DNA of 64,000 nt, taken from contig NZ_CP016474.1 in NCBI RefSeq assembly GCF_001693255.1, positions 372,001 through 436,000 on the forward strand, given 5' to 3'. The first letter of the stretch is position 1. Every line of letters starts with the position of its first letter. Of the stretch, positions 25,803 to 30,003 are shown one piece after another. The stretch comes from Picosynechococcus sp. PCC 7003 (lineage in GTDB: Bacteria; Cyanobacteriota; Cyanobacteriia; Cyanobacteriales; MRBY01). A program made the position numbers and the translations under genes. The notes below the pieces were generated by a model. It saw only the letters and a list, made by a program, of their open reading frames with translations, was not told where the DNA came from and did no database searches.

Positions 25803-25835
25803 AGATCCCCGACTTCTACGAGAAGTCGGGGATCT
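25803..25835. repeat. Perfect 15-bp palindrome (interspersed cyanobacterial repeat type)
   Basis: AGATCCCCGACTTCT (25803-25817), loop ACG, then the exact inverse complement (25821-25835). This GATCCCCGACTTC-type palindrome is widespread in cyanobacterial intergenic regions. It stands directly before the truncated type IIG gene, 20-odd bases from its start, and could act as a terminator of the upstream gene, though no T-run follows. Confidence 0.8.
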
Positions 25836-25856: not shown

Positions 25857-26753
25857 ATGATCAAAGGGCGATCGCCACAGGATACGACTAAGCAGATGAC
25901 GGATTTTATTGAGAAGTGGAAAGGCTCGGAAGGGAATGAACGGGCAAATTACCAGAGCTTTTTAAATGATTTTTGTGAGTTTCTGGGGGTGGAGAAGTCG
26001 CCGCCGAAGGGTGAAGGGAATAACAGCTATTGTTTTGATCGGGATGTAAAAATCATTGCGCCGAGTGGGGCAGCAACAACGAATTTTATTGATTTTTATA
26101 AGGAAGGCTGCTTTGTTCTGGAGACGAAGCAGGGCAGCAACTCCAGCAATAAGGGGCACGGGAAACGGGGGACGGCTGCCTACCGGAAGGAGATGAAAAA
26201 GGCGTTTGGGCAGGCGCTCAAGTATGCGCGGTTTGTGGAGCCAAAGCCTCCTTTTTTGATTACTTGCGATATCGGCGATCATTTTCGGGTTTGGCAGGAT
26301 TTTAGTGAGTCTTGGCTCAGTGCGAATGGAAATTACGGAACCTATGACAGTGTGCCGAAGATTCCGTTTACGGATCTGAAAAAGCCAGAAGTTCAGGATT
26401 TTTTCTATAAGGTTTTCACGGATCCGCAGTCGTTAAACCCCGAAAAGATCGCAGCGCAGGTGACGCGGGAAGTGGCGGCGGATTTGGCGGAATTGTCAAA
26501 GACCCTAGAGGAAACGGCGAGTCCTCAAATGGTGGCGCATTTTTTGATGTGCTGTATTTTTACGATGTTTGCGGAGGATGTGGGGTTACTGAAGGAACAT
26601 CTGTTTACGGAGGCGCTGCGGGAACGGTGGATCCCCAAACCGCAGGATTTTAAGCCCCAAGTGGAAGCGTTATGGCAGGCAATGAATGATGGGACAAGTT
26701 TTGGGTTCCACGGGCAGTTGCTCCGGTTTAATGGGGGATTGTTAACAGATTAG
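25857..26753 (+). pseudogene. N-terminal fragment of a type IIG restriction-methylation gene (nuclease domain)
   Basis: 298 codons matching the front end of the large (~1,000+ residue) single-chain class I SAM-dependent methylase/nuclease proteins (MmeI/PglX-like type IIG). The PD-(D/E)XK nuclease residues appear in place: D in NFIDFYKEG and E-T-K in CFVLETKQG (about residues 78-92). The helical connector is present up to FHGQLLRFNGGLLTD, where normal members continue into the methylase domain; here a TAG stop follows at once. The missing methylase region is not found, but the C-terminal part resumes at ~28676. HIP1 and host-like composition mark the fragment as older than the insert. A residual expressed nuclease domain is possible but unproven. 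Confidence 0.75.
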
Positions 26754-26842
26754 CTATCGAGTATTCTTCTGCTTCTGTGAGAATACTTGACAACTTCCAC
26801 ACTAGTCTTGGATACTTATAGTCATCAAAAAGAGTTCGGGAT

Positions 26843-27721
26843 ATGATAGAAACTAATACTCAAGATCTCACGAAATATACTTGGGATTTTCAACATCTTT
26901 TCAATCAGCCAGTCCAACCAATCTTTCAAACAGACAAGGGTGCTTTATTTGAAGAAGACTGTTTGAATATCTTGCATTCGATGAATTCAAGTAGTGTGAA
27001 TCTGATTTTTGCAGATCCACCTTTCAATCTCGGAAAAAAATACGGTGCAAAAGTCAATGATCAGCGTTCAGAGAATGAATATCTTTTATGGATGAAATCT
27101 TGGATTACTGAATGCACAAGAATATTAAATGACGGAGGATCTATCTTTATATACAACTTGCCAAAATGGAATATTTTTGCTGGTAATTATCTTAATGATT
27201 TAGGTCTGAACTTTCGACATTGGATTACTGTCGATATTAAGATGAGCATGCCAATTAAGGGACGTTTGTATCCATCTCACTACAGCCTCCTTTACTATTG
27301 TAAGGGTGATTCTCCTACAATATTTAAAAGAATTCGCACGCCGATTCAACTTTGCAGACATTGTGGAGGAGAAATCAAGGACTATGGCGGACATAGAAAA
27401 TCTATGAACCCAAACGGTGTTACATTAAGCGATGTATGGTGTGATATCACTCCTGTTCGACATTGGAAATATAAAAGCAAAAAGAGAAAAACTAATCAGT
27501 TATCAACAAAATTACTCTCAAGGGTTATTGAGATGGCAACTAATCCTGGTGACATCGTTTTTGATCCTTTTGGTGGATCTGGAACTACGTTTTCTGTGTG
27601 TGAAGCGAAACATCGTCACTGGTTAGGATCAGAAATTGAAAGTTGTGATGTTATCATCGAACGTCTAACAGCGGGTGAAGTTTATCATCACCAGAATGAT
27701 GACTATATAGAAGAAGAGTAA
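26843..27721 (+). CDS. Site-specific DNA methyltransferase of the BamHI-like system
   Basis: 292 residues, beta-class amino-methyltransferase layout: catalytic motif IV DPPF at 58-61 (LIFADPPFNLGKKY), then the target-recognition region with a C-x2-C pair at 171/174 (CRHCGGE) suggestive of a zinc site, and SAM motif I DPFGGSGTT at 241-249. DPPF is typical of N6-adenine methyltransferases, whereas M.BamHI itself is an N4-cytosine enzyme, so which base of GGATCC is modified is open. The gene is convergent with the endonuclease gene (2 bases between stops), AT-rich and lacks HIP1 sites, unlike the surrounding chromosome. Its role is protection of host DNA against the adjacent endonuclease. Confidence 0.88.
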   Translation: MIETNTQDLTKYTWDFQHLFNQPVQPIFQTDKGALFEEDCLNILHSMNSSSVNLIFADPPFNLGKKYGAKVNDQRSENEYLLWMKSWITECTRILNDGGSIFIYNLPKWNIFAGNYLNDLGLNFRHWITVDIKMSMPIKGRLYPSHYSLLYYCKGDSPTIFKRIRTPIQLCRHCGGEIKDYGGHRKSMNPNGVTLSDVWCDITPVRHWKYKSKKRKTNQLSTKLLSRVIEMATNPGDIVFDPFGGSGTTFSVCEAKHRHWLGSEIESCDVIIERLTAGEVYHHQNDDYIEEE

Positions 27722-27723
27722 TA

Positions 27724-28323
27724 TTATCTTTTCGCCATTCCATCAAAACCCTTGGGAATAAAGTCAACTTCAGGGTCGAGTGCATCGTATTCAACGGATA
27801 CTATTCGGAGTAGAGCAGAGCCTATTTGTAATTTGTTCCAAAGGAAAAAATATTCGCGAAGTTCGTTTATGTTACCGATACGATCAGTAATGTAAGGACG
27901 CATGGATTCTGATGGAACGACTAACACCCCAGCAATCAATCCTTTTTTGAGAAGTGCTAAAAGCATTTTATTAATTGCTCTATGACTCGACGAAATATTC
28001 CCTGTTTCCCACTCAAAGCCAATATTCCCAAGCTTAGGATTTTCATATAAAGCATCTAGGTTTCCCATTTTTGCTCCAGCTAATTGTTTAGGGAGCTTTT
28101 CTACCCTCCACCCACGACTCTTTAACAAATTGATAGCAGGGATTTTAATAGGTTTTACTCCATTCTTATGTTTTTCGGTTGGATTTAGAGAAAAACTGCC
28201 TGAACCATGAGGCCAGTCAATGGCAGTTATGGAATCCTCAATATCATTCCAACGTGCTTCCCAGAATTCTGATTCAGATATATTTCTTGATTCAATGATG
28301 TCAATAATTTCTATGATTTTCAT
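27724..28323 (-). CDS. BamHI-like type II restriction endonuclease (predicted GGATCC)
   Basis: 199 residues, clearly homologous to BamHI (213 residues). Shared stretches: F-x-x-N-x-TEK-x-x-NGV-x-PIK (residues ~44-60), FEWETGNISSSHRAINK (103-119; BamHI FETGNISSAHRSMNK), Y-x-TDR-x-x-N (144-151) and the end IPKGFDGMAKR (BamHI IPKGSDGMSKR). Catalytic residues E77, D94, E111 and E113 of BamHI correspond to E75, D90, E104 and E106. Base-contacting N116, S118, R122, D154 and R155 correspond to N109, S111, R115, D147 and R148. All are retained, so G^GATCC cleavage is the natural prediction. The C-terminal helix after SKR of BamHI is shortened. The gene overlaps the controller gene by 4 nt. Confidence 0.93.
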   Translation of the reverse strand: MKIIEIIDIIESRNISESEFWEARWNDIEDSITAIDWPHGSGSFSLNPTEKHKNGVKPIKIPAINLLKSRGWRVEKLPKQLAGAKMGNLDALYENPKLGNIGFEWETGNISSSHRAINKMLLALLKKGLIAGVLVVPSESMRPYITDRIGNINELREYFFLWNKLQIGSALLRIVSVEYDALDPEVDFIPKGFDGMAKR

Positions 28324-28538
28324 ATATCATTTAGTAGTTCAGATAGTGAGATACCAAGACTAGATGAGATTGCATAAAGGTTTTGGAATGAGACATTTCT
28401 CTCGCCTCGCTCAATGCCCCCGATATAAGTCCGATCTAAATTACATTTACTAGCCAAGACTTCTTGTGATAAACCTTTTGCTTTTCTTATTTCTCTAATT
28501 CTGGAACCCAGTTGAATTAGCAAGTTATTTTTTTCCAT
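28320..28538 (-). CDS. Restriction-modification controller (C) protein, XRE-type HTH
   Basis: 72 residues, the size of C proteins (C.AhdI 74, C.PvuII 84). A single helix-turn-helix XRE domain covers the protein: GSRIREIRKAKGLSQEVLA, then the recognition helix area DRTYIGGIERGERNVS, which has the TYI-x-GIERG-x-RN hallmark of controllers. C proteins dimerise on C-boxes upstream of their own gene, activating C and R expression with a delay after entry into a new host and repressing at high dose. Here the stop overlaps the endonuclease ATG (ATGA), and a C-box lies 24-47 bases upstream. It is transcribed together with the endonuclease gene. Confidence 0.88.
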   Translation of the reverse strand: MEKNNLLIQLGSRIREIRKAKGLSQEVLASKCNLDRTYIGGIERGERNVSFQNLYAISSSLGISLSELLNDI

Positions 28539-28561
28539 AGGTATAACTATGCTAAGATGAC

Positions 28562-28585
28562 GACTATTGGTCTACGGACTATAAG
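28562..28585 (-). promoter_or_regulatory. C-box operator upstream of the controller gene
   Basis: On the minus strand ACTTATAGT is followed by CCGT, then AGACCA and ATAGTC. This fits the published C-box pattern of two imperfect (G)ACTnATAGTC-type half sites around a central GT-containing spacer. It ends 24 bases before the controller ATG, the expected place for an auto-activator that recruits RNA polymerase. Confidence 0.75.
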
Positions 28586-28675
28586 TATCATTTAAGGCTC
28601 TTTCCTCTTAAGTAATCTATTCTGCTTTCGGCTAGTTAACTTTCTGTACATATCTTTGGAGAGATTTACTCTCTC

Positions 28676-29440
28676 TCGCAACAAGTCCATGCCACCCATC
28701 CCATAGTCACCATCACCGCTATGTATAACTGCCTCGAAAAAATGCGGAGTGGCGAACCCTTCACCGACAAAGACAGAGAATTTAACAACAAAGCCCTCAT
28801 CACCACCCTCAAACAAATCCACGACGACCTCGATCAAGCCGTTTTCCGCGCCTACGGCTGGGACGACCTGATCCCCCTGTGGCAAAAAGTTTATCGAGAT
28901 CCCCCCCAGCCCCCCTTGAGTAAGGGGGGAGAAGAAAGCTCTCAAAAAGTCCCCCTTGCCTCCCTTTTTAAGGGAGGTGCCGAAGGCGGAGGGATCGGGG
29001 ATTTAGGGGGATCAAATCCCAAAGAAGAACTCGAACAAACCATCCTGCAAAGATTAGTCGATCTCAACGCAGAACGCGCCGAAGAAGAACGAAACGGCTT
29101 TGTCCGTTGGCTCCGACCCGAATACCAAGCCCCCGATGAAGTCGTCACCCAGAAAGTCATCGAAGGCGTTGGCGTAGAAGAGAAAAAAGAAGAGGTTGTC
29201 ATTGCCCCACCCGAACAACAAAAATTCCCGACAAAACTCAAAGATCAACTTGCTGCGATCCGAGATTTATTGCGTACCCAAGGCGGCGAATGGACAATTA
29301 CCCAAATTGCCGCCCAGTTCAAAGGCACAAGCGCAAAAAAATTAGAAACGATTCAAAACTGCCTAGAAATCCTCGAAGACCTCGGCGTCATTTTGAGTCA
29401 CACCGAAACCGAAACCAAGTGCTACTACGCTACCCTCTAG
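28676..29440 (+). pseudogene. C-terminal fragment of the type IIG restriction-methylation gene
   Basis: About 250 codons whose frame is already family-like before the first ATG (28721): HPIVTITAMYNCLEKMRSGE, LKQIHDDLDQAVFRAYGWDD, ILQRLVDLNAERAEEERNGF, VRWLRPEYQAP, then a C-terminal winged-helix-like region (WTITQIAAQFKGTSAKKLET). These are the closing segments of type IIG enzymes whose N-terminal part is the fragment at 25857-26753. The methylase core between them is gone, its place taken by the BamHI-like system. The fragment also contains an in-frame repeat insertion at 28898-29013. No start signal of its own is evident. Confidence 0.75.
28898..29013. repeat. GATCCCCC...GGGGGATC interspersed repeat inside coding sequence
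   Basis: A C-rich then G-rich element bounded by GATCCCCC and GGGGGATC with inner palindromic pieces (CCCCCTTGAGTAAGGGGG; CTCCCTTTTTAAGGGAG). It is translated in frame as DPPQPPLSKGGEE...SLFKGGAEGGG...DLGG, the familiar PPQPPLSKGG signature of a cyanobacterial repeat family inserted into proteins. It interrupts the type IIG C-terminal domain between KVYR and PKEELEQT without breaking the frame. Confidence 0.75.
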
Positions 29441-29481
29441 TGATCAGTTGGTGCTGCATTAGCTAAAAAGGTCAGGAGATA

Positions 29482-30003
29482 TTATTCGACATCTAACTGA
29501 CGACCATTGCGGTCATAAACAAGGATATCCCATTGGCCATTTTCAGCGGCCTCAAAGGCAATTTTAGACCCGTCAGCACTAATGGTTGGATTACGCACTT
29601 CCTGGTTTAAGTTATCGGTTAAATTCCGTTTTTGTTCAAACTCGCGATCATAAAGATAAATATCAGATTCGCCACGACGATTAACCGCAAACACGATATA
29701 ACGACCGTCTTCAGAAACGGCCGGATGGGAGGCAATTTCATTTAGGGCATTGAGGCCCGGTAACAGAATCGTTTGGCGGGTACTGGTATCAAATAGATAG
29801 ATATCCTGGGAGCCGTTGCGGTCTGAGGCAAAAACCAGGTAGGGTTCGGCGATCGCCGGATCAAATTCGAGGGCACGGCTGTTTAAACTGCGGCCACCGG
29901 GATCAACGGGAAAATTGACAATGCGCGGATAACCAACACAGCTCTGGAGCAGCAAACCGAGGCTACCGAGGAAAAAACTGCGTAGGAAAGAAACATAGCG
30001 CAT
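29482..30003 (-). CDS. TolB/PD40-like beta-propeller lipoprotein
   Basis: 173 residues. A signal peptide with a lipobox-like LLLQSC (Cys ~22) suggests lipid anchoring outside the cytoplasmic membrane. The rest holds PD40 (TolB-type WD) repeats: YLVFASDRNGSQDIYLFD, YIVFAVNRRGESDIYLYD and KIAFEAAENGQWDILVYD. Three or four blades only, shorter than TolB (about 400 residues) and without the TolB N-terminal domain. Short cyanobacterial TolB-like lipoproteins of this sort are common; function unknown. It is divergent from yifB. Confidence 0.78.
   Translation of the reverse strand: MRYVSFLRSFFLGSLGLLLQSCVGYPRIVNFPVDPGGRSLNSRALEFDPAIAEPYLVFASDRNGSQDIYLFDTSTRQTILLPGLNALNEIASHPAVSEDGRYIVFAVNRRGESDIYLYDREFEQKRNLTDNLNQEVRNPTISADGSKIAFEAAENGQWDILVYDRNGRQLDVE

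Follow-up and report, generated by a model that had tools for sequence, protein, structure and literature searches.

The analysed stretch (hereafter, the window) comprises 64,000 nucleotides of Picosynechococcus sp. PCC 7003 (contig NZ_CP016474.1, positions 372,001 to 436,000) and is part of a 3.35-Mb genome, the two smaller contigs of which match solely Picosynechococcus plasmids, at 77-90% over a portion of the length compared. Here, a complete restriction system of the BamHI type, made up of a methyltransferase (M), a restriction endonuclease (R), and a controller protein (C), replaces the core of an MmeI-like type IIG restriction gene (IIG), a conclusion we hold with high confidence. The same IIG module is replaced by related cassettes in two genera, the second case being found in a distantly related cyanobacterium, a metagenome-assembled genome of Coleofasciculaceae (L015, counted as one genome with G519). 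The coordinates of all features are given in Table 1.

The interrupted type IIG gene

Both flanks of the cassette match one PADLOC IIG model (positions 3-302 and 958-1135 of 1136), and the profile search reports MmeI_N (4e-24) and MmeI_hel (1.9e-15) for the N-terminal part. The comparison with related strains, suggested in the initial annotation, yields an intact IIG gene of 1162 amino acids without insert in the same-genus genome G002, located at the syntenic place between conserved neighbours. Therefore, the two flanks represent a single interrupted gene that has lost its methyltransferase (MTase) and target-recognition domain (TRD) core. The G002 gene resembles the MmeI-like type IIG enzymes (PDB 5hr4; MmeI match 5.2e-37) and has the domain order MmeI_N (residues 3-206), MmeI_hel (212-283), MmeI_Mtase (384-679), and MmeI_TRD (763-923). 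All 4 domains are present in the G002 gene and in a paralogue in the strain's own genome, whereas the window gene has just the first two, and its MTase and TRD are gone. The 5' remnant is 92% identical to the intact G002 gene, being native up to position 26743 and ending with 3 foreign codons and a stop.

According to the alignment with G002, the left break lies after position 26743, which corresponds to residue 283, with which MmeI_hel ends. The right break is placed before position 28680 (residue ~944), directly behind MmeI_TRD, and is uncertain by ~20 bp, as the local alignment with the own paralogue extends ~20 bp into the right edge. The flanks of the cassette look native, with identity to G002 per 150 bp equal to 73-97% leftward from 24015 on and 78-100% rightward. 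As for target-site duplication, a 4-bp AACA at both ends is found and nothing longer, ~2 kb being deleted instead; among the repeats listed, none flanks the insert. The cassette probably entered by recombining with an IIG gene that the host already carried and could do without, and the two remnants are probably dead ends. Of the 6 genomes compared within the genus, 4 have the neighbouring genes side by side and neither cassette nor IIG gene at the site, which gives the order of states: empty site, IIG gene, cassette within the IIG gene.

The probability that each flank is a full-length gene in its own right, with no interruption at all, is practically negligible. Both pieces are indeed open reading frames, and the N-terminal one contains a complete pair of nuclease and helical domains; however, a single IIG model accounts for both, one at either end, a single gene of 1162 amino acids occupies the same site in G002, and the N-terminal part of the Coleofasciculaceae copy has an in-frame stop. 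The reading as independent genes is refuted by the intact G002 gene.

Regarding base composition, none of the 1165 windows of the same size that lie clear of the insert has a GC content as low as that of the insert (minimum 39.1%, mean 49.9%). The HIP1 octamer GCGATCGC is truly missing from the insert, as had been pointed out initially, but the gap reaches from 25868 to 29849, and 29 of the 1165 windows that do not overlap the insert (2.5%) also lack it. Since the gap covers the native IIG arms as well, the absence of GCGATCGC is modest evidence for a foreign origin. In several other respects the initial annotation agrees with these results: the open reading frames of both IIG parts, M, R, and C are present where it placed them, the insert is as AT-rich as it claimed, the proposed loss of the methylase core is borne out by the G002 alignment and the domain content, and the cassette does sit inside a type IIG gene, a like replacement in another genus having been beyond its reach.

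Two further sequence features belong to the IIG gene. At 25803-25835, immediately upstream of the IIG start, there is an inverted repeat with perfectly matching 15-bp arms and a loop of 3 bases. The 3' remnant contains an in-frame repeat-like stretch at 28895-29015 (PPLSKGG ... SLFKGGAEGGG), which is missing in G002, whereas the own paralogue contains a shorter version of it.

Table 1. Features of the locus in window coordinates, and other broken IIG genes of the order sample in the coordinates of their own loci (aa, amino acids)
Feature	Position	Strand	Description
Inserted cassette	26744..28679	.	1936 bp, 36.7% GC; replaces ~1983 bp (aa ~284-943) of IIG, measured relative to G002
5' IIG remnant	25857..26753	+	298 aa; MmeI_N and MmeI_hel; ends FNGGLLTD-stop
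M, amino-methyltransferase	26843..27721	+	292 aa; DPPF precedes DPFGGSGTT
R, BamHI-family endonuclease	27724..28323	-	199 aa; convergent with M, 2-bp gap
C, controller protein	28320..28538	-	72 aa; 4-bp overlap with R
3' IIG remnant, downstream of the TRD	28679..29440	+	Open reading frame 28721-29440; frame open from 28679
Candidate M promoter	26787..26816	+	TTGACA-18-GATACT, by consensus match alone
Probable OM-like controller operator (predicted)	26811..26826	+	GATACTTATAGTCATC; overlaps the -10 of M
Probable paired operator, OL+OR-like (predicted)	28562..28586	-	ACTTATAGTC-CGTA-GACCAATAGTC; upstream of C
Broken IIG, G355	L054 4189-5454		Position is that of TnpB, which lies between aa 319 and 954; the module lost is almost that of the window
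Broken IIG, G540	L058 3035-3771		Position is that of XisH/XisI, which lie among IIG remnants between aa 174 and 671
Broken IIG, G386			aa 395 and 850; middle lost, nothing inserted
Broken IIG, G082			aa 675 and 818; middle lost, nothing inserted

The BamHI-type cassette and its predicted control

The families initially proposed for the three cassette proteins, a BamHI-like endonuclease, a methyltransferase, and a controller, are confirmed by strong profile matches. R belongs to Pfam BamHI with an E-value of 9.8e-42 (142.8 bits against the curated cut-off of 22.8), and its nearest solved relative is OkrAI (4.6e-46), followed by BamHI. In the structure alignment, with residues numbered by chain positions, D94, E111, and E113, the catalytic residues of BamHI, and N116, S118, R122, D154, and R155, its recognition residues, are all identical in R. 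R thus shares the Pfam family of BamHI and OkrAI (PDB 1bam, 3odh) and keeps these catalytic and base-contacting residues. M is an N6_N4_Mtase protein (7.7e-43), while C matches the PADLOC control protein model (5.2e-25) and is homologous to C.AhdI (9.5e-17) and C.Esp1396I (2.7e-11). M may produce either N6-methyladenine (m6A) or N4-methylcytosine (m4C), the DPPF motif being more usual for the former. We infer that R would cut GGATCC and that M would protect it.

The layout at the sequence level is of the Esp1396I kind, with a paired site before C-R, a single site at M, and M convergent. In Esp1396I, according to PMC4041747, the C-R operon is convergent with M, a paired operator precedes C, and a single operator lies at the M promoter; C first stimulates the C-R operon and later dampens it, and M is repressed by C. 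The cassette has the same gene and operator arrangement, its operators being predicted from sequence; the endonuclease here is of the BamHI family. The box ACTTATAGTC occurs twice in the window, solely before C and before M (0 in 100 shuffles), and the second box at C, GACCAATAGTC, is less similar than the first one. Similar operator-like sites are present at both promoters in L015 and L093, and the TTGACA and GATACT hexamers of the candidate M promoter are both kept in L015. Among the DNA-contacting residues T36, Y37, R46, and S52 of C.Esp1396I, each of which affects binding according to PMC4041747, the first three appear conserved in C and S52 is changed, assuming that the numbering there runs three behind the PDB chain.

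Because the layout is likened to that of Esp1396I, we infer a regulatory circuit of the same kind driven by C. In a new host, the M promoter would be active first, and C and R would begin weakly. C might then bind the two sites before its own gene, so that the C-R operon would first be switched on and later damped, and binding of C to the site over the M promoter would limit M.

As for specificity, the genome retains an intact IIG paralogue of 1201 amino acids (L006 3418-7023, reverse orientation, ~2.2 Mb). Its identity to the G002 gene per 50 residues is 82-98% up to residue 550, 16-66% for residues 551-900, and 67-94% after that. Since the recognition region is diverged, the paralogue probably differs in specificity from the G002 gene. 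The earlier suggestion that the strain exchanged one specificity for another is not supported as a clean exchange, as the strain still has this whole second IIG gene, whose recognition region is different. The genome also has one D12-type methyltransferase above the cut-off (L109), presumably Dam-like. Were m6A within GGATCC to block R, this enzyme would already have shielded the host; BamHI, however, is insensitive to Dam methylation.

Several observations weigh against the picture of a controlled, GGATCC-specific cassette that replaced the IIG core. The number of promoter-like matches in the region is 6, against 7.1 expected by chance. The replacement of ~1983 bp by 1936 bp is a figure relative to G002, the lost allele itself not being visible. 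GGATCC occurs 567 times in the genome and its control word (reversed) 604 times, compared with 513 and 643 in G002, respectively, and genome-wide avoidance is thus no stronger than in cassette-free G002. Within the window, 10 GGATCC sites are found against a Markov expectation of 18.2, but GAATTC, GGTACC, and GGCGCC are below expectation as well. Finally, the N-terminal remnant shows neither acceleration nor visible decay, with nonsynonymous divergence (dN) to the paralogue of 0.0777 versus 0.0761 for the G002 gene.

The C-terminal remnant evolves somewhat faster (dN 0.1288 versus 0.1041 for G002). These figures are compatible with a recent arrival of the cassette but are no proof of its age or activity. 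It seems very unlikely that the N-terminal remnant is still functional, for example as a truncated nuclease under selection. The ratio of nonsynonymous to synonymous divergence (dN/dS) against G002 is as low as 0.059, and there is no acceleration relative to the paralogue, as such a function would have it; most of this divergence may, however, predate the event, the remnant has no recognition domain, and the sole other composite carries the stop in its N-terminal part.

A second composite and the origin of both

The scan of named genomes returned two relatives of R, the closer of which (69%) belongs to L015. The related cassette there has M identical by 75.5% and C by 80% over 55 residues, shows the same gene order and orientation as in the window, and lies between IIG residues 1-266 and residue 923 onward. 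The L015 flanks share 86% and 84% identity with an uninterrupted IIG gene in G462, a genome of the same genus as G519, compared with 48% and 67% with that of G002. Therefore, the cassette lies in the native, local IIG gene in each genus. The breaks of the two composites differ by 13-17 and 21-25 codons, the exact figure depending on whether ends are set by eye or taken from tblastn.

Whether one composite spread between the genera or two events were independent is close to even. Two independent illegitimate replacements in a gene that tolerates loss, with the shared place explained by domain boundaries and by the family's tendency to lose its middle, are just short of an even chance. Other broken IIG copies in the order sample (Table 1) keep both ends and lose the middle, and edge sequence is not common to the two composites, the edges of which are unrelated. 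The shared cassette subfamily, the orientation, and the near-equal edge spacing would, however, have to be chance. The distance from residue 266 to the conserved cassette core is 91 bp in the window and 92 bp in L015, and that from the end of the C box to codon 944 is 89 bp in both; this near-equality was noticed post hoc and is suggestive.

The same spacing favours the view that one ancestral composite, with the cassette within an IIG gene, spread between genera by homologous recombination through the IIG arms, the arms being native and the core being the cassette. We regard this spread as plausible, though somewhat below an even chance. The gene family, the module, and the orientation are common to both genera, and 2 of the 3 closest cassettes in the order sample (R at least 55% identical: own, G519, and G446) are nested in IIG. 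On the other hand, the breaks do not coincide, arms with 48-67% identity should recombine poorly, and the closer intermediate donors that would be needed were not found. Remnants of donor arms would also be expected, but neither edge of the window insert, 41 bp and 89 bp long, clearly resembles IIG genes or the second composite, nor does the right edge show homology to the stand-alone G446 cassette. The search for IIG remnants in the edges covered those of 30 IIG genes in which an anchor could be located, 27 for the right edge and 17 for the left, and gave no clear case: the top score on the right falls short of the 95% shuffle level, and the top score on the left (L026) slightly exceeds it, which chance alone may bring about once in 17. 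The best hint, the right edge against the own paralogue, is reached by 8.8% of shuffles.

A broader proposal is that the IIG family would serve as a recurrent docking site, where a BamHI-type cassette carried between IIG arms moves from genus to genus by homologous recombination, deleting the MTase and recognition module of its rival. We put it forward tentatively and consider it more probably wrong than right. If true, one restriction system would spread via the replacement of another.

Distribution and significance

Relatives of R are present in 8 of 386 genomes of the phylum sample and 45 of 388 genomes of the order sample. Among the 32 of the 45 order-sample loci that were inspected, M is on the opposite strand in all 32, a detectable C in 7, and adjoining IIG pieces in 2, with 30 of the 32 having at most 1.5 kb of flank per side. 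After these two carriers, the closest relative in the order sample is that of G446 (55-56%), where C, R, and M form a unit of their own. The family is variable in gene order, since in at least L076, L090, and L022 M is placed on the C side of R and the two do not converge. Among the carriers' relatives, R is found in 1 of 14 genomes of the G519 family (G519 itself) and 1 of 6 of the own family (the window genome itself). The cassette was not found on phages or viral contigs in a search that in part reaches close relatives only, while plasmids gave three distant relatives (37-44%). Beside BamHI-like enzymes on Desulfocapsa and Geobacillus plasmids, M has ~415 residues and is divergent from C-R, unlike the shorter, convergent M of the cassette.

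Regarding fragmentary IIG matches, 15 stretches were examined, of which 8 reach a contig end and 2 (L061 and L068) represent the 3' part alone. The four other broken genes differ in content: TnpB lies inside one, XisH/XisI among the remnants of another, and the remaining two have no insertion (Table 1).

Each part of the locus belongs to a known kind, and the replacement is real and well bounded; among the titles listed by literature searches, none concerns this locus. Restriction systems have been described that are mobile on their own and take the place of resident DNA (PabI family, PMC4615327; review PMC3874152). The cassette is similar in that, of two related genomes, one has a restriction unit in place of chromosomal DNA. 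As a difference, the DNA lost here encoded the core of a second restriction enzyme, and in two genera it is this module that has been replaced.

Related cassettes that remove the same module in two genera, with intact alleles in sister genomes, open the route of replacement to direct study. Restriction systems are known to move and compete, and it may be that one takes the place of another repeatedly at a single site. Picosynechococcus is used in photosynthetic biotechnology, and the locus predicts a GGATCC barrier, together with its regulation, in this Picosynechococcus strain.

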